This document shows positions 8,833-17,836 of a stretch of 64,000 nucleotides of DNA, one piece after another. Numbering within the stretch: position 1 is the stretch's first letter; every line of letters starts with the position of its first letter. Below the pieces are notes generated by a model that was given only the letters and a program-made list of their open reading frames with translations, made no database searches and was not told where the DNA came from. The translations under genes and the position numbers were made by a program. The DNA is from Cyanobacteria bacterium TGS_CYA1 (GTDB taxonomy: Bacteria; Cyanobacteriota; Vampirovibrionia; Obscuribacterales; Obscuribacteraceae). The DNA lies in assembly GCA_026129135.1 (NCBI GenBank), contig JAHCIQ010000004.1, forward strand, positions 186,001-250,000, written 5' to 3'.

Positions 8833-10005
8833 ATGTCTGATCCAGGACTAGGTCTTCCATGTGTGCTCAACAGGCGCTGGCAAGTCGTTCAACGACTTGG
8901 TCAGGGCGGCATGGGCACAGTCTATTTATCCAACGATTTGAATCTTCCAAATCTTGGTGACAGTAAACGTTCGTGCGTGGTCAAACAATTGCGCGACGAT
9001 TTCTTCAGACAGGAAGACCGTGAGCGCGCTATTCAATTCTTCTTCCGCGAAGCACAAGTTCTTTCGGCGTTGAGCCATCCAAATATCGTGGCTATTCTCG
9101 ATTTCTTTCAGGAAGAAGGAAAGTCTTATCTCATTATGGAATACGTGCGAGGCAAAAACTTGCACGAGATGCTCATGGAGCGCGGCGAGCCATTCTCTAA
9201 CGAAGAAGTCATAGACTGGGCCATTCAAGTTTGCGAAGTGCTGCACTATTTGCATACGCACGACCCGCCCGTCATTTATCGTGATCTAAAACCAAGCAAT
9301 ATAATGATCGACGAGCGCAATCAAGTAAAACTAGTAGACTTCGGTATTGCAAGACCTTTTGAAGAAAGCGAAGACAACACGCACGTAGTATCGCAAGGAT
9401 ATTCTCCACCAGAGCAATATTGGGGCGCTGCCGATCCAAGGTCAGATGTTTACGCCCTTGGTTGCACAATGTATTTTCTTTTGACTGGCAAAGACTCGCT
9501 TGCTTTGACAGTATCGAATCCTAAAAAATTGAATCCAGACGTGCTCGATGCATTGGATAGAATCATACAACGAGCCACTCAACAAGACGTTTGGAGCCGC
9601 TATCAGTCTGCTCTAGAGATGAAAGAAGAGCTTATTTTCTTGCGCTCCAAAATTCAGCCCAAGCCAAAGGCTTCGCGCAATAAAATATGGATGATTGCAG
9701 CTGCAGCCATCGGACTGGTTGTGGTATCGTCCCTGGTGATTGCCAAAATGCAAAGCGAACATGAAATGGTGGAGCAAGAAGCTGCTAATTACAGAGAAAT
9801 GCGTGCTCAAGCCGAGCAAGAAAAAATGCTTTTCAAAATAGGCAATCAGACCAAGCAACAAAAGGTCTCCCCTACCGCACAAACGCAAACAAATTCTGGC
9901 GCCTTTCATATTCAGCAAGCAAAGCCTAATGTTTCAAAAAAACAGTATCTGCCAGTGAGCGATGAGTCTATGCTCACCGATTCGCAGGGCTTATTTGACC
10001 GTTGA
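8833..10005 (+). CDS. Membrane-bound Hanks-type Ser/Thr protein kinase
   Basis: The kinase domain occupies residues 16-275: glycine loop LGQGGMGTVYL (22-32), catalytic Lys51 in VVKQL, catalytic loop YRDLKPSN with Asp151, DFGIARPF (169-176), and an activation segment ending YSPPEQYWG. All catalytic residues are present, so it should be active. Tyr replaces the usual His of HRD. One transmembrane helix follows (about 285-305, WMIAAAAIGLVVVSSLVIA), then a roughly 85-residue Gln-rich coiled coil expected outside the membrane. There are no PASTA repeats. A paralogue without a membrane helix lies at 23619-24716. Its 3' end overlaps convergent uppP by 15 bases. The substrate is unknown. Confidence 0.92.
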   Translation: MSDPGLGLPCVLNRRWQVVQRLGQGGMGTVYLSNDLNLPNLGDSKRSCVVKQLRDDFFRQEDRERAIQFFFREAQVLSALSHPNIVAILDFFQEEGKSYLIMEYVRGKNLHEMLMERGEPFSNEEVIDWAIQVCEVLHYLHTHDPPVIYRDLKPSNIMIDERNQVKLVDFGIARPFEESEDNTHVVSQGYSPPEQYWGAADPRSDVYALGCTMYFLLTGKDSLALTVSNPKKLNPDVLDALDRIIQRATQQDVWSRYQSALEMKEELIFLRSKIQPKPKASRNKIWMIAAAAIGLVVVSSLVIAKMQSEHEMVEQEAANYREMRAQAEQEKMLFKIGNQTKQQKVSPTAQTQTNSGAFHIQQAKPNVSKKQYLPVSDESMLTDSQGLFDR

Positions 10006-10839: not shown

Positions 10840-11682
10840 TTATTTCGATCTCTTTTTAGTTACAGGTTTTTTGGCTTGAGTTGGTGCTTTCACGCTTTGT
10901 GCTTTGGTCAGAGGCTTTGTCATCTCTGCAAGTGTGGTGCGAGTTTTAGCTGCAGGCGCGATATTTTTCTTTTCTTTAATTTGAGCAGACCATGAGTTTA
11001 GCCCGGTCTTGACCTGGGTCTGGAGTTCTTTACTCGATTTTTGGCTGCTTGCCTGACCACCAAGTTTGACCAGAAACTTGTCTAATTTGTCTGACGACTC
11101 TTTGCTCAAAGCTATAAATTGAAGAGCGATAATTGATTTGTTCGCAAGCCAGTTCGATTCTATGCGAATAATTTGGGCTTTTATTTTGAGTATGCCTTCA
11201 GGCAATTGAAATTCGCTTTTGACCATTTGTCCGGGCTCGAGGCCCAACTTCTGAATGAGCTTGGTTTCGAGCTTCGAGCCCGAGCGGCAAAGATCAACTG
11301 TTTCAAAAGTTCTAGACCTGGCGTTGGTATCATCGCTGGTGACAGTAACGGGTAATTTTACTTCGACCCGATTCACTTTGCGTCTTTGTTTGAGTGGCTT
11401 CAATTTTGGAAGACCACAAACGAGCACTTTTTTGCCTTTGACCAGTTGGCTCGACATTACAGAAGATGCCCACAAGCCTGCAAAGCCTGAAATGCCTGCA
11501 TCCTGCACAAACCAGAGTTTGGTGCCAGCTGGCAAAATTTTGTTTGCGCTTTGATTGGTCTTAATCTGCAGAAAAATTTGACTTGCAGTCTTAGACAAAA
11601 TGGTGGCACGACCAATATCGAATTCGCCTGGTGCAATTTCGAACTTGATCTTGTATGAGCTGTTTGTTTCAAGCATAGACAT
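10840..11682 (-). CDS. PilZ-domain protein with YcgR-like N-terminal domain
   Basis: The 280-residue protein has an N-terminal beta-rich domain (about 10-95) resembling the PilZN/YcgR cap. It is followed by a PilZ domain beginning with RKVNR (101-105, the RxxxR motif for c-di-GMP binding). The second motif is DLCRSG (130-135), where Cys replaces the usual Ser of DxSxxG. PilZ proteins sense cyclic di-GMP and act on motility, exopolysaccharide or secretion. The altered motif could weaken binding. The C-terminal 80 residues are Lys/Thr/Ala-rich and probably disordered. It lies between rsmI (3-base gap) and uppP (no gap) in one leftward operon. Confidence 0.8.
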   Translation of the reverse strand: MSMLETNSSYKIKFEIAPGEFDIGRATILSKTASQIFLQIKTNQSANKILPAGTKLWFVQDAGISGFAGLWASSVMSSQLVKGKKVLVCGLPKLKPLKQRRKVNRVEVKLPVTVTSDDTNARSRTFETVDLCRSGSKLETKLIQKLGLEPGQMVKSEFQLPEGILKIKAQIIRIESNWLANKSIIALQFIALSKESSDKLDKFLVKLGGQASSQKSSKELQTQVKTGLNSWSAQIKEKKNIAPAAKTRTTLAEMTKPLTKAQSVKAPTQAKKPVTKKRSK

Positions 11683-11685
11683 AGA

Positions 11686-12558
11686 TTATAGGTTATTTTC
11701 ACTCAAAGAAGAGGCCATGATTTCCAGAGTCAATTTATAAGCGTCAGACTTGCGCACACCAAATCTGGTTTGACACGAGGCGGAGATGTCTTTGACCGAT
11801 TGGTTTTGAGAAAGTGCCATTTGTATATATTCTTTCAAGTCTTCTGCGCTTGCTTCGCCTTCTTGTTCTAACTCTTTATTGCCTTCAATTACGAGGGTAA
11901 ATTCACCTTTTAGTTTTACCGAATTTTCTTTCTTGCTCAAAAAATCATGAATTTGAGCAATGCTTCCACGAATGAATTCTTCGTGCAGCTTGGTCAGTTC
12001 ACGAGCAACACATGCTGGTCTATCTTTGAACACTTCACTTAAAACAATCAATTTTTCAAGCAGTCCGTGAGGCGAAACAAAAAAGACCATGGTTCTTTTT
12101 TCTTGTTCAAGGGCCTGAGCCATTGTTTTGAGTTCCTTTTTCTTATCCGGCAGAAAACCCTCGAAGCTAAAACGGCTCGAATCGAGCCCGCTTCCAATTA
12201 GCGCCTGAATAATTGCTGTGGGACCAGGTATGGGAACGATTTCAAATCCAAGTTCTATAGCCGTTTGAATGACCAGTTGTCCTGGATCGCAAAGACATGG
12301 TGTTCCTGCATCGCTTACGATTGCTGCGTCTTGTCCATTTTCAAGCAGCGATTGCAACAAATCCAGTCGTGATTTTTCATTGAACTTGTGACAACTGATA
12401 AGCTTCTTCTTTATGTCGAGATGATTCAAAAGTTTGAGCGATACGCGCGTATCCTCAGCCAGAACCACATTTGCACTCAGAAGAGCTTCTTTGGCACGCG
12501 CCGATATATCTTTTAGATTTCCTATCGGTGTAGAAATTATGAACAGTCTTGCTGACAA
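11686..12558 (-). CDS. rsmI: 16S rRNA (cytidine1402-2'-O)-methyltransferase
   Basis: The 290-residue protein belongs to the tetrapyrrole-methylase-like SAM enzymes. FIISTPIGNLKDIS near the N-terminus, AEDTRVSLKLLNHL, VSDAGTPCLCDPG and PGPTAIIQALIGSGL are the RsmI signatures. It methylates the 2'-OH of C1402 in the decoding centre, together with RsmH. The C-terminal HemX/HTH-like tail (KDISASCQTRFGVRKSDAY) is also typical. It is the first gene of the rsmI-PilZ-uppP operon, which faces away from a 426-base intergenic region. Confidence 0.95.
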   Translation of the reverse strand: MSARLFIISTPIGNLKDISARAKEALLSANVVLAEDTRVSLKLLNHLDIKKKLISCHKFNEKSRLDLLQSLLENGQDAAIVSDAGTPCLCDPGQLVIQTAIELGFEIVPIPGPTAIIQALIGSGLDSSRFSFEGFLPDKKKELKTMAQALEQEKRTMVFFVSPHGLLEKLIVLSEVFKDRPACVARELTKLHEEFIRGSIAQIHDFLSKKENSVKLKGEFTLVIEGNKELEQEGEASAEDLKEYIQMALSQNQSVKDISASCQTRFGVRKSDAYKLTLEIMASSLSENNL

Positions 12559-12984: not shown

Positions 12985-14265
12985 ATGTTTAGACCAGCGC
13001 TCAATCTTTTTTCTATTCCTCTTATAGTTTTTGCGCTCGTGATTTCTCAATGTTCTAAAGTATTAGCATTGCCTGCCAAAGAGAAGAAGCCCGCCATCAG
13101 AGAGAAGTGGGCGCTCATAGTTTCGTGCGAAAAATATTTCGACAAAGATATTCCTTCTATTAATTCAGCCACCGATAGTGGAGTAGCGCTCAAAGAAATT
13201 CTTTTGAACCCGCAGATTGGACGTTTTGCCCCTGCACACGTGGCATCTGTTTCAGGCACCAAAACAATCAAAAGCAATATAGAAAAATGTGTGGGCGAAC
13301 CGTGGCTTTTAAAACATACTCTGCCAGGCGATCTCGTCTTGCTTTACTTCAATACTCGTTATAAAACAGTGCCTGGCAAAAACGATATATTTCTATGTTT
13401 TTACGACACGCCATCAAGCAAAGGCAGTCTTGAAAACACAATCAGTCTGCGCGAAACGCTCAAAGTCGCAGCCAAGCGCACCCAGTCTCCATACATCGTA
13501 TGTCTTCTCGATATAAGTCCAGTTGTGCATCTTGATGACGGTTCTGCTCCGTCGTCCAAAATATTTGATGAGATCGCGCAAGAAACTAATACCACTATTT
13601 TTGCCGCTACTCATCCGGGACTTGAAGCGCAACACGCGCAAACAAAAAAGTGTTCAGCATTCATAGATAACTTTTCAGAAGCACTTAAAGCTGGTGCTGG
13701 TCAGACCGATCTCTTTGCTATCAGTCAATATGTCCAGCAAAACGCTGGAACTGAAAAGGCTATTTTTGCTTATCCCAGAAACGATTCTCTGGTTGTGAAA
13801 GCCATTCTTGGGATGCCTACCAAAAGCTCGACGCCAGAACATATACGCATTGGACATAATCCAGATACTGTCTATGTCGAAGAACGTCAGGCGCAACTAG
13901 CAGCTAAAAACGCAGCTGCTGCCAATGACAAAGACAAAGAAAAAGACGACGACGATGATGATGACGATACATCTAATTCAGGTCAGGCTGTCGATTTTGG
14001 CTCGTATATGAAAAAAATGAAAAAAGATATACAGTCGAAATGGGCACCACCAAAAGGTTTTAACGCCGAGCGTGTGGTGGCTGTTTTTACAATAACTAAA
14101 GATGGACGAATCACAGAGCCGCAAATAGTCGAAAGCAGCGGCAAGCAAAATATAGACGAACTTGCGCTTCAGGCTTTGACTCAAGCCTCGCCGCTTGATC
14201 CATTGCCAAAAGGCTCGCCAAGTTCAGTCCAGATTCGATATCAGTTCGACTGGTCAGTGCACTGA
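12985..14265 (+). CDS. Secreted caspase-like pseudoenzyme fused to a TonB C-terminal domain
   Basis: The 426-residue protein begins with a Sec signal peptide (1-29). Residues 40-275 read as a caspase/peptidase C14-like fold: WALIVSCEKYFDKDIPSINSA, a hydrophobic strand DLVLLYFN, and IVCLLDIS. Where active caspases have the SGHG histidine this protein has NTRYKT (123-128). Where they have DACxS it has DISPVV (176-181). Both catalytic residues are therefore missing. A run of eight aspartates (321-328) links to a TonB-C domain (338-426) with YMKKMKKDIQSKW, GRITEPQIVESSG and LDPLPKGSP. TonB-C domains normally contact TonB-dependent receptors or act in envelope scaffolds. The combination suggests a non-catalytic envelope protein. 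The fold call is by motif spacing and is less certain than the TonB-C call. Confidence 0.7.
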   Translation: MFRPALNLFSIPLIVFALVISQCSKVLALPAKEKKPAIREKWALIVSCEKYFDKDIPSINSATDSGVALKEILLNPQIGRFAPAHVASVSGTKTIKSNIEKCVGEPWLLKHTLPGDLVLLYFNTRYKTVPGKNDIFLCFYDTPSSKGSLENTISLRETLKVAAKRTQSPYIVCLLDISPVVHLDDGSAPSSKIFDEIAQETNTTIFAATHPGLEAQHAQTKKCSAFIDNFSEALKAGAGQTDLFAISQYVQQNAGTEKAIFAYPRNDSLVVKAILGMPTKSSTPEHIRIGHNPDTVYVEERQAQLAAKNAAAANDKDKEKDDDDDDDDTSNSGQAVDFGSYMKKMKKDIQSKWAPPKGFNAERVVAVFTITKDGRITEPQIVESSGKQNIDELALQALTQASPLDPLPKGSPSSVQIRYQFDWSVH

Positions 14266-14427: not shown

Positions 14428-14949
14428 ATGAACAACGACAGCAATCAAGACCCAATGGATAAATTGCCCAAAAGGCAGGAGCGTCCGGATGAATCCGGAA
14501 GCGGCGGGTTCAACTTGCTCGACATCTCTAAAGATTCAGGCAAAAAAGCTGAGCAAGCGAAGCCCAAAGACACTGGCAAAGACGCTAAAAAAGACGTCCA
14601 GGACACTAAAAGCGACAGATCGAGCGAAGCTTTCGATAAAGCCGCAAAAGACGGAAAGTCAGTCCAGGCTATTGCTAAGAGCGGCAAGAAAATCAAAGAA
14701 GGCATGAACAGACTTCCTGCCAACTGGAAAAAGCATGCTCAGAACGTGATGTCTCAAACAGTTCAAATTCTGGTCCAACAGCACGGTCCTAAAAATCAGC
14801 AGGTTGCCAAGGCTGCTCTCAACTACACTGCCGGCGGCGGTGAAGAAGAAAACAAAATCATCCAGATCACAACCGACCCTCAAGGGGGTCAAGACCCAGC
14901 CACTGGCGGCTCTGAGCCCGGACCTGCCGCAGGTTCACCGCAAAAGTAG
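14428..14949 (+). CDS. Low-complexity charged protein of unknown function
   Basis: This 173-residue protein has no signal peptide or membrane helix. Residues 1-85 are Lys/Asp/Ser-rich and probably disordered (repeated KDTGKDAKKD-type segments). A short helical core at about 88-135 (MNRLPANWKKHAQNVMSQTV, then QQVAKAALNYTA) is the only likely ordered part. The tail is Gly/Pro-rich. It has its own -10 hexamer. It lies between the caspase-like gene and rpsT, about 118 bases from the latter. The coding call rests on frame length, promoter and codon pattern; no family is recognised. Confidence 0.65.
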   Translation: MNNDSNQDPMDKLPKRQERPDESGSGGFNLLDISKDSGKKAEQAKPKDTGKDAKKDVQDTKSDRSSEAFDKAAKDGKSVQAIAKSGKKIKEGMNRLPANWKKHAQNVMSQTVQILVQQHGPKNQQVAKAALNYTAGGGEEENKIIQITTDPQGGQDPATGGSEPGPAAGSPQK

Positions 14950-15067: not shown

Positions 15068-15340
15068 GTGCCCAATATCAAATCTGCTATTAAGAGAGTC
15101 AAAGTTGCTGAACGCAACCGCCTGCGCAACCGCGTATACAAGTCTCAGTTGAGAACTTTCCAAAATCACGTCGAAGACGCTATGAAATCGGCTGACCAGA
15201 AAGCTATTGATTCTAGCCTCAGCGCTTTCTACAAAATCGTAGATAAGTCCGTCGCCAAAGGTGTGTTGCACAAAAACACCGGTGACCGTAAGAAGTCTCG
15301 CTTGGCTGCCAGACTTCACCTGTTAAAATCTGGCAAATAG
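15068..15340 (+). CDS. rpsT: 30S ribosomal protein S20
   Basis: The 90-residue basic protein matches bS20 end to end: PNIKSAIKRVKVAERNRLRN at the start, DKSVAKGVLHKNTGDRKKSRLA in the second half. bS20 binds 16S rRNA early in 30S assembly. The start codon is GTG at 15068 with GGTGAGG 14 bases upstream. The length is normal (85-90). It has its own promoter and is followed by murC after about 70-120 bases, depending on the murC start. Confidence 0.97.
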   Translation: MPNIKSAIKRVKVAERNRLRNRVYKSQLRTFQNHVEDAMKSADQKAIDSSLSAFYKIVDKSVAKGVLHKNTGDRKKSRLAARLHLLKSGK

Positions 15341-15411: not shown

Positions 15412-16956
15412 TTGTGTGTCTTACCGAAGTTGGCTGTATATGCAGGATATGCGAGGCGGGACTTGGATATAGATACTCGTAATACTCAAAGCGCTGTTAC
15501 TAAAAATTCTGTCGATTTTGAAAAGCTGACTAAATCAGGAAAGACTGTACACCTTGTAGGCATTGGTGGCATCGGTATGTCTGCTCTTGCACGCCTTGTG
15601 CTTGCTCAAGGCAAGAAGGTAAGCGGTTCTGACAAAGCAGCTTCTGAAATAACAAAAGAACTGGAAGACAGTGGTGCCAAGATATGCATTGGACATAACG
15701 CTTCTAACGTAGCTGATGCGGGACTCATGGTCGTCTCGACCGCAATCTCGGATGAAAATCCAGAAATGGCTGAAGCCAAGCGTTTGAACCTTCCTGTGTG
15801 GCATCGCTCAGACTTACTTTGCGAATTGACTAAAGGCAAAAAACTTATCGGTGTCTCGGGCACCCACGGCAAAACCACTACAACCGGCATGGTATCTCAG
15901 ATTCTCATAGATGGCGGTCTTGAACCGTCGGTGGTGGTAGGCGGAATCTTCGGCAAAATCAAAGCTAATTCTATCCATGGCAACGGTCAATATTTCGCTG
16001 CTGAAATCGATGAGAGCGATGGCACTCAAGTCAAAGTAGACTCGTATATTTCTATCATTACAAATATCGAAGGCGACCATCTGGAGAACTATCCAGGCGG
16101 ACTTGAACAAATCAAAAAGATGATGCTCGTCTTTGCCGAACAGACCAAAGGTCACATCATTTTGTGCATGGACGACGCTGGATGTCGCGAACTTAGTGGC
16201 AATATTTCGCCTGGACAAAAATCCAAGCTAGTCACTTACGGTACAAGAGGCACAGCCCATGCTGCCGCTTGCGACTACACATTCGAGAGCCCAGATAGTT
16301 TCTCGATGGAGGTCTATCACAAAGACAAATTGCTAGGTACGCTCGAAATGAGTGTTCCCGGTGAGCATAATAAAGCAAATGCACTATCTGCCATCATCAC
16401 AGGTCTGCTTTGCGGACTCGATTTTGAAACAATCAAAAAATCTATTTCGCAATTCGTCGGTGTCAACAGACGTTTCCAGATACTTGGTCAATCTGGTGGC
16501 GTCATGGTAGTAGATGACTATGCGCACCATCCAACAGAAGTGGTGGCGACACTAAAAGCAGCGCAAGATTATCTCACGGTAAAAGGAAAAGACCAGGGAT
16601 TGAAGCGTGTTGTAATCTTGTTCCAGCCGCATCAACCGTCACGTTTGAAAGACCACTGGCAAGATTTTTGCCGCTCTTTCAAATTTGCAGATTTGGTTTT
16701 GATGAGCGACGTTTATGTGGCAAGAGGAAAATCAATCGATGGTATAAACTCCGAAAAGTTTTCCAAAGAAGTCGAACACAAAGACGTAAAATACATTGGC
16801 GGTGCGATAAAAGATATTGCCGACAATGTGATGAGCGAACTCAAAGCAGGTGACTTACTCTTGACTGTGGGTGCAGGCGACATCACAAATATTGGGCCGA
16901 AGCTTTTGCAAATGCTTCAAGGCGCGGAAGTAAAAGAGAATGGAAGAACTAGCTAA
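15412..16956 (+). CDS. murC: UDP-N-acetylmuramate--L-alanine ligase
   Basis: MurC adds L-alanine to UDP-MurNAc in the cytoplasm. The Rossmann motif HLVGIGGIGMS (47-57), the ATP loop GTHGKTTT (150-157), and the late block VVDDYAHHPTEV are diagnostic. The start is uncertain because there is no ATG before the conserved core. TTG at 15412 gives 514 residues. TTG at 15463, behind GAGGCGGG, would give 497 and removes an unconserved leader. MurC is usually 450-490. The stop overlaps murB by 17 bases. It is the first gene of an operon murC-murB-hydrolase-murF-ddl. Confidence 0.95.
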   Translation: MCVLPKLAVYAGYARRDLDIDTRNTQSAVTKNSVDFEKLTKSGKTVHLVGIGGIGMSALARLVLAQGKKVSGSDKAASEITKELEDSGAKICIGHNASNVADAGLMVVSTAISDENPEMAEAKRLNLPVWHRSDLLCELTKGKKLIGVSGTHGKTTTTGMVSQILIDGGLEPSVVVGGIFGKIKANSIHGNGQYFAAEIDESDGTQVKVDSYISIITNIEGDHLENYPGGLEQIKKMMLVFAEQTKGHIILCMDDAGCRELSGNISPGQKSKLVTYGTRGTAHAAACDYTFESPDSFSMEVYHKDKLLGTLEMSVPGEHNKANALSAIITGLLCGLDFETIKKSISQFVGVNRRFQILGQSGGVMVVDDYAHHPTEVVATLKAAQDYLTVKGKDQGLKRVVILFQPHQPSRLKDHWQDFCRSFKFADLVLMSDVYVARGKSIDGINSEKFSKEVEHKDVKYIGGAIKDIADNVMSELKAGDLLLTVGAGDITNIGPKLLQMLQGAEVKENGRTS

Positions 16957-17836
16957 TGCCTCACTGGCACGCTATACAACACTAAAAATCGGCGGTGAAG
17001 CCCGTCGCGTTTTCCATCCTAAAACTATTGACGAGCTTGTAGGTCTGGTCACAAAACTTGATGGCGAGCCCTGGTACATTATTGGTGGCGGCTCGAACCT
17101 GCTCGTTTCTTCAGAAGGTTTTGACGGTTCTGTTATTCGTACAACCGACCTTACCGAAATAAAACAGATTTCTGAAAGTCAATTAGAAGCAGCCGCAGGT
17201 GCGCGTCTTCCGCACCTGGCAAAGTTTGCAGCCAAGCAAGGATATTCTGGTCTCGAGTTTGCAGTTGGAATTCCAGGAACTGTGGGTGGTGGCGTCATAA
17301 TGAATGCCGGTGCACACGGAAGTTGCATGGCGAATATCGTGGACACTGTCACTTATTTTGATTCAGACCAGAAAAAACTAGTCACACTTAAAAATGACGA
17401 AGTCGGATTTGTTTACAGAAAGTGTAAGCTCGATCCTCTGAAACATGTGATTGTTTCTGCCGTTTTCAATCTTCCTCATGGCGAAGCTGAAGCTATCGTT
17501 GCCAAAACCAAACACAACGAAGAATATAGAATGCGCACCCAGCCAATTGGATTTCCCAATGCCGGAAGCACATTCAAAAATCCAGACCCAGACAGAAGCG
17601 CAGGTTTGCTCTTAGACAAATCTGGTGCCAAAAACATGCACATTGGCAAAGCAGCTGTTTCAGACCTGCATGCCAATTTTGTCATTAACATGGGTGGTGC
17701 CACTTCGCACGATGTGGCAAACTTAGTTGGTCGCATGCAAGAAATGGTGCAAGAACAGTTCCATGTAAGAATGATGCCCGAATGGAAAACGCTTGGTAAA
17801 TTCACCGATGAAGAATTGAGGGCATGGAAATCATGA
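16940..17836 (+). CDS. murB: UDP-N-acetylenolpyruvoylglucosamine reductase
   Basis: This FAD enzyme reduces UDP-GlcNAc-enolpyruvate to UDP-MurNAc with NADPH. The FAD-binding stretch WYIIGGGSNLLVSSEGFDG, the loop VGIPGTVGGGVIMNAGAHG, and QPIGFPNAGSTFKNP (with the proton-donating Ser) are all visible. The length of 298 and the lack of the extra E. coli-type insert indicate a type II MurB (B. subtilis/cyanobacterial type). Its ATG lies within the end of murC, so the two are probably translationally coupled. Confidence 0.95.
   Translation: MEELANASLARYTTLKIGGEARRVFHPKTIDELVGLVTKLDGEPWYIIGGGSNLLVSSEGFDGSVIRTTDLTEIKQISESQLEAAAGARLPHLAKFAAKQGYSGLEFAVGIPGTVGGGVIMNAGAHGSCMANIVDTVTYFDSDQKKLVTLKNDEVGFVYRKCKLDPLKHVIVSAVFNLPHGEAEAIVAKTKHNEEYRMRTQPIGFPNAGSTFKNPDPDRSAGLLLDKSGAKNMHIGKAAVSDLHANFVINMGGATSHDVANLVGRMQEMVQEQFHVRMMPEWKTLGKFTDEELRAWKS

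Follow-up and report, generated by a model that had tools for sequence, protein, structure and literature searches.

A predicted catalytically dead caspase domain joined to a TonB/TolA-type domain in an apparently exported protein of the order Candidatus Obscuribacterales

Dead caspases are usually viewed as regulators of live caspases or of cell death, and c-FLIP(L) is an animal pseudocaspase. Pseudo-orthocaspases are a group without proteolytic activity and without the separate p10 domain that metacaspases have. Among bacteria, pseudo-orthocaspases made up 858 of the 9,994 orthocaspases surveyed by Klemencic et al. (2019, PMC6426788), and the main text of that work names several dyad variants, each linked to a domain architecture: YS, YA, FS, QC, HA, and YN, with plain C-termini, TPR, trypsin, or DUF4384. 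The word "TonB" has 0 occurrences in this main text, and likewise 0 in the available text of PMC3501461. According to the abstract of PMC7889975, deletion of SyOC, a pseudo-orthocaspase of Synechocystis, led to higher oxidative stress tolerance. No report of a caspase–TonB fusion, of an orthocaspase with TonB, or of TonB in Obscuribacterales was found in the open-licence PMC literature. In the same literature a bat microbiome paper was the single match for Obscuribacter together with a caspase, and four papers matched for caspase-like domains, TonB, and Melainabacteria did not, by their titles, concern such a fusion.

The window, a stretch of 64,000 nucleotides, contained an ORF of 426 aa with an ATG start at 12985..14265 (+), exactly where the initial annotation had placed it. 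Judging from the ORF and its orthologues, it encodes an apparently exported fusion of a pseudocaspase with a TonB/TolA-type domain; the features of this ORF given in the present paragraph lie on the same strand. A putative N-terminal export segment, recognized by eye (residues 1–28, 12985..13068), has its hydrophobic core at residues 8–21 and a possible cleavage site after VLA28. It is followed by a caspase-fold domain (residues 36–284, 13090..13836), assigned from a weak sequence match together with the fold, by a linker carrying the expected Asp run (eight Asp, residues 321–328, 13945..13968), and by a TonB/TolA-III-type domain (residues 339–423, 13999..14253), assigned from Pfam and fold matches.

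The Pfam models TonB_2 (E 3.4e-12) and TonB_C (E 4.8e-9) both scored above their cut-offs, confirming the TonB-type C-terminus proposed initially, and beyond the TonB type no further domain was recognized by Pfam over cut-off in the window fusion. Peptidase_C14 matched at E 0.0035 only, under its cut-off, and the NCBIfam model caspase_w_EACC1 (E 2.7e-9) was likewise under its own. The caspase call is weak when made from the sequence of the window protein alone, and it is the sequences of its relatives that settle the caspase identity. Peptidase_C14 matched 13 of the 32 aligned orthologues at E ≤ 0.01, with a best value of 1.6e-11; TonB_2 and TonB_C matched all 32, and Pfam TolA matched 11 at E ≤ 0.01. 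The 25 residues ahead of the TonB-type domain contained 5–13 Asp or Glu in 30 of the 32 orthologues and none in the other two (L071 and L072; L071 and L077 are one gene, counted as L071 alone).

The AlphaFold2 model of the whole window protein, built from 26 sequences, had a mean pLDDT of 82 and contained a single caspase-like unit of about 250 residues. The top match of residues 36–284 was the MALT1 paracaspase (3v4o_A, Foldseek E 3.4e-12), and 209 residues of the caspase part were aligned with 3uo8_C at Z 22.9 and rmsd 2.7 (VIA-align), supporting the caspase-type fold that had been read from the sequence; animal caspases scored just behind MALT1 (VIA-align, Z 20–22). The C-terminal domain, modelled by itself with a mean pLDDT of 81, matched TolA domain III (6s3w and 2x9a, both Z 11.5) and Helicobacter pylori TonB (6sly, Z 10.4), far above unrelated structures lower in the list; receptor-bound TonB domains were also among the matches (6i97_D, Z 8.6; 2gsk_B, Z 8.2). 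For the modelled domain, TolA III is at least as good a match as TonB, the two being nearly tied. The longest helix of the linker region comprised residues 293–313, and the model was without a long helical domain. By these models, both a caspase fold and a TonB/TolA-type C-terminal fold are present in the window protein.

According to the alignment of 43 orthologues, the place of the catalytic His is taken by Arg125 (13357..13359), within YFNTRYKT, and that of the catalytic Cys by Ser178 (13516..13518). The initial annotation had reported both residues as lost (NTRYKT and DISPVV), and this was true of the whole family. Among the 43 fusion proteins, one per genome, residue 125 was R in 33, K in 6, A in 2, I in 1, and L in 1, with His in 0/43; residue 178 was S in 18, A in 7, T in 5, Q in 4, N in 3, L in 3, G in 2, and Y in 1, with Cys in 0/43. 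The comparison set of 78 other caspase domains, gathered as a single set for the dyad counts from the window genome and named relatives, had His in 76, Cys in 76, and both in 75. Asp176, the D of the DxC motif (13510..13512), was D in 43/43 fusions and in 76/78 other caspase domains. An intact dyad elsewhere in the homologues was looked for as well, and no evident replacement was found at another position: no common Cys or His column of the 43 fusions substitutes for the His–Cys pair.

The losses were not confined to the dyad. Paralogue matches shorter than 180 residues were left out of the alignment of fusions and paralogues, and 61 of its positions reached 85% conservation or more among the 75 intact domains; 21 of these were likewise retained by 60% or more of 32 fusions, and 40 were not. 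The glycine after the His, the Ser two residues ahead of that His, the Ser following the catalytic Cys, the Asp at 65, and the Trp-Glu at 216–217 were lost in the fusions, while K41, W42, F81, L108, D116, and D176 were kept. Counted over all 43 fusions, the cleft residues were retained as follows: D65 in 1/43, S123 in 7/43, W216 in 0/43, and E217 in 6/43. The conserved D176 and the basic residue at 125 (Arg or Lys in 39/43) may form a salt bridge shutting the old pocket. From these alignments, the caspase domain is predicted to be catalytically dead and proteolytically inactive across the family.

The fusion was found in 43 of the 53 genomes of the order Candidatus Obscuribacterales, which is far above chance; 42 matches were full-span and one consisted of two pieces inside one open frame. 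Twenty-two genomes were of high quality (completeness of 90% or more, contamination of 5% or less), and 21 of them carried the fusion, the exception being G002. The ten genomes without a full fusion were G002 and G024, which had the TonB-type part only, G017, where this part lies at the end of a contig, and seven for which no full-span match was listed (G003, G028, G031, G037, G436, G442, and G443), each of them outside at least one of the two quality limits. Across the phylum, the family alignment matched 45 of 386 genomes at 1e-25. All listed phylum matches outside the window genome started from model position 286 on and covered the linker and the TonB-type domain only; the 17 such regions that were read encoded TonB-type proteins, many of them with Pro-rich spacers, with a caspase match in none and rpsT or murC adjoining none. 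Nucleotide records were scanned with a single peptide pattern, which leaves fusions elsewhere possible; the source records of the best 80 of 125 matches were mostly Candidatus Obscuribacter, Obscuribacterales, or Melainabacteria MAGs. One record carrying the fusion, JAJPJO010000559.1 (Centralia_MAG_505, L094), is titled Proteobacteria, a title that is probably mislabelled.

In a tree of 110 caspase domains, rooted at the midpoint only, all 32 fusion domains fell on one side of a branch with 100/100 support, and the fusion clan was separated from the other caspases of the window genome in 200/200 bootstrap trees. This topology indicates that the 32 fusion caspase domains are one clan of single origin. 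Caspase domains of Acidobacteriota (L151, L163, and L164) branched beside those of Obscuribacterales in the same tree; gene transfer or sampling may account for this. The TonB-type domain was the best conserved, with a mean pairwise identity of 54%; the caspase part reached 32% and the linker 27%. Five of eight pairs had an estimable dS and gave dN/dS values of 0.08–0.30 for the caspase part, dS being saturated in the other three. The values point to purifying selection on the caspase part, the strength of which is rough because dS was saturated or high in most pairs.

The window gene lies between the divergent rsmI (11686..12558, −, TIGR00096) and the same-strand genes rpsT (15068..15340, +, TIGR00029), murC (15412..16956, +, TIGR01082), and murB (16940..17836, +, NF010480), all named by NCBIfam matches over cut-off; uppP lies past rsmI, and the gene between these two (10840–11682) had no NCBIfam match. 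In 38 of the 43 fusion loci a same-strand rpsT was detected downstream, as were murC and murB in 33 each; rsmI was detected upstream and divergent in 34. Most of the missing neighbours fall at loci where the available sequence is short; at the five loci without rpsT the sequence stops 1.8–3.8 kb downstream of the matched point of the caspase part. Where the sequence suffices, the fusion gene almost always has rpsT-murC-murB downstream of it and rsmI diverging from it.

An ORF of one cluster sits between rsmI and the fusion gene in 15 of the 23 loci compared, the window not being among them; the scanned example of this cluster was an Eco57I-type DNA methylase. Between the fusion gene and rpsT the window has a hydrophilic ORF of 173 aa (14428–14949, +) without a Pfam match, which clustered with no ORF at the same place among the loci compared. 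Promoter-like sites numbered 9 against 4.2 (sd 2.2) in shuffled sequences, and terminator-like sites 3 against 3.3; neither count enters the interpretation below. A Ser/Thr protein kinase is encoded at 8833..10005 (+), near cell-wall genes, and a similar kinase was seen near the locus in many relatives.

Two genomes of one genus, g3 (G002 and G024), had at this place, upstream of rpsT-murC, a TonB-type protein of 156–163 aa without the caspase part and with a hydrophobic N-terminus, as judged by eye. The caspase part can be dispensed with, since it was dropped in this genus.

The window genome (an assembly of 4.26 Mb) contained 13 other C14 domains over cut-off, and most of the paralogues that were read had intact dyads. 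Many of the 13 were joined to TPR or Sel1 repeats. A second dead caspase of this genome (L010, G000 C13:180500-184000) has STSSFP and LQSGYSG at the places of the dyad and is followed by TPRs; it has a relative in L148 and lies outside the TonB-type clan. Two adjoining, closely related TPR-caspase genes (L020, G000 C1:262800-266900) are apparently a tandem duplication. A second TonB-type/caspase fusion, considered for the N-terminus of the caspase at C1:265 kb (L020), was rejected on profile comparison (probability 1.0%, E 0.053). Elsewhere, an ORF of 639 aa (L170) encodes tandem caspase domains, the first without the dyad (residues 68–315) and the second with it (residues 380–637); it is a possible built-in pseudocaspase–caspase pair.

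Twelve genomes were chosen for a check of C14 matches besides the fusion. In four of them, all of high quality, the fusion was present and there was no other C14 match: G007 (98% complete) and G018 (93%) had the fusion itself as the only match, while G021 (97%) and G036 (94%) had none. It seems unlikely that intact caspases went undetected in these four genomes, because those found elsewhere score far above the C14 cut-off, though divergent ones could escape. In G002, which has lost the caspase part, there was no C14 match anywhere.

A hydrophobic N-terminal segment was found in all 32 aligned orthologues, which bears out the initial suggestion of a secreted protein as far as apparent export is concerned. 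An A-x-A motif follows this segment in 21 of the 32 and is absent from 11, the window protein among them; the segment may act as a signal that is cleaved off or as an uncleaved membrane anchor. The membrane segment of TonB needs a His to meet ExbB, and all 32 orthologues lacked a His in their hydrophobic segment. The linker of the fusion is acidic rather than Pro-rich, so there is no Pro-rich periplasmic spacer. With both the ExbB-type His and the spacer absent, the protein does not appear to be a plain TonB. The window genome has one ExbB/TolQ-type and one ExbD/TolR-type protein, adjoining a different TonB-type gene: the single ExbB and ExbD lie together with a Pro-rich TonB on contig C12. 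TonB_2 matched at 17 places in the genome, far exceeding the need of the one plug-domain receptor found, which suggests that the module has other uses. Several of the TonB_2 proteins (L024, L025, L026, and L027) also match TPR.

We infer that the fusion is an exported, non-proteolytic adaptor of the envelope, a reading to which we give somewhat better than even confidence. A Sec-type N-terminus would carry the protein over the inner membrane, and the TonB/TolA-III-type domain would dock on a partner in the periplasm or outer membrane, the model for this being, by analogy, the way in which TonB and TolA domains bind. The dead caspase fold would be retained as a protein-interaction domain binding another protein, tethered to the docking domain by the acidic flexible linker. 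Such an adaptor would be neither an ExbBD-driven energizer nor a regulator of active caspases. The same reading proposes that the caspase dyad has been lost since the ancestor of Candidatus Obscuribacterales. From the fixed position of its gene next to rpsT-murC-murB, the protein may take part in maintaining the envelope or the peptidoglycan, though synteny with the housekeeping genes rpsT and mur may be historical. Counted against the adaptor are the fast divergence of the caspase part, its loss in genus g3, the absence of A-x-A from 11 of the 32 N-termini, and the fact that all knowledge of the order here comes from genomes of uncultured organisms. Taken more broadly, the caspase domain would be a non-enzymatic structural or binding module of an order-wide Ton/Tol-type envelope protein, serving the upkeep of the cell wall or outer membrane apart from any proteolytic or cell-death pathway; this we propose tentatively, at a little less than an even chance. 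The initial annotation had offered sensing or scaffolding as alternatives, and scaffolding fits better, because the substrate cleft was remodelled and not the dyad alone.

Several other explanations were weighed against the adaptor. The wealth of mostly intact caspases in the window genome and the presence of the caspase-8:c-FLIP structure 3h11_B among the fold matches of the caspase part (Z 21.3) would suit a c-FLIP-like regulator, whose dead domain would pair with active caspases secreted by the same cell, checking or activating them. As the fusion is kept in four genomes without another detectable caspase, regulation of active caspases is not its conserved role, and we regard this explanation as quite unlikely; caspase regulation could be an extra role in caspase-rich species. 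An energy transducer like TonB, or a competitor on TonB-dependent receptors, draws on the clear TonB_2 and TonB_C matches, on the receptor-bound TonB structures in the fold list, and on the presence in the genome of an ExbB, an ExbD, and a plug-domain receptor, each found once. It is unlikely in view of the missing segment His, the acidic linker, the Pro-rich TonB that adjoins ExbB on a different contig, and the ratio of 17 TonB_2 matches to a single plug receptor. The missing His, the canonical TonB–ExbB–ExbD set encoded elsewhere, the single plug receptor, and the TolA III match likewise leave unsupported a link to TonB-dependent receptors, an interaction that the initial annotation had marked for testing.

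The Asp of the DxC motif helps to line the S1 pocket in metacaspases, and the invariance of Asp176 next to an Arg or Lys at the His site could thus indicate a pseudo-receptor, in which the old cleft binds basic peptides uncut and signals to the envelope via the TonB-type domain. With cleft positions 65, 123, 216, and 217 mostly lost, and with D176 present in nearly all active relatives, where it may be structural, only a minor chance is left to this explanation. Residual proteolysis, by way of another nucleophile or a dyad shifted elsewhere, is extremely improbable: the Cys site is most often occupied by Ser (18/43), and Cys occurs at column 123 in 25/43 fusions and at column 173 in 27/43, but there is no column in which either residue takes the place of the dyad family-wide, and the glycine after the His and the Ser after the Cys are gone as well. 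The sole common His column, 85 (38/43), is likely structural since it is just as common in other caspase domains (75/78). That the caspase part is a functionless, decaying relic would agree with its loss in genus g3 and with its faster divergence compared with the TonB-type part; it is very improbable given a frame open in 43 genomes across the order, dN/dS well under 1 where estimable, and the retention of 21 of the 61 positions that intact caspases conserve.

Were the adaptor reading true, the caspase fold would be separated here from proteolysis and death, and the fusion would provide an envelope marker protein for an order that is represented here mostly by metagenome-assembled genomes. 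What sets the family apart is a dead caspase conserved across a bacterial order, even in genomes without a detectable live caspase, and linked to cell-wall genes by its locus and to a Ton/Tol-type domain by fusion. Like c-FLIP(L), it has a caspase fold without protease activity, as predicted here; unlike c-FLIP(L), it is retained in genomes with no other detectable caspase. The C-terminus has the same fold as TolA III and the TonB C-terminal domain, but it stands behind a dead caspase and an acidic linker, without an ExbB-type membrane segment and, in contrast to TolA, without the long helical domain II that TolA has. By dyad and fold, the fusion belongs in kind with the pseudo-orthocaspases, sharing with those in the main text of PMC6426788 a p20-type caspase domain, a substituted His–Cys dyad, and clade-specific occurrence; the cyanobacterial YS forms described there have a TAT-like N-terminus. 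SyOC is likewise a dead caspase homologue from a relative of the window lineage, but its abstract (PMC7889975) mentions no TonB-type domain, which the fusion has. The dyad of the fusion, mostly Arg or Lys with a variable residue, and its TonB/TolA-type C-terminus are absent from the variants named in the main text of PMC6426788, and by these two features the family differs from each of them.
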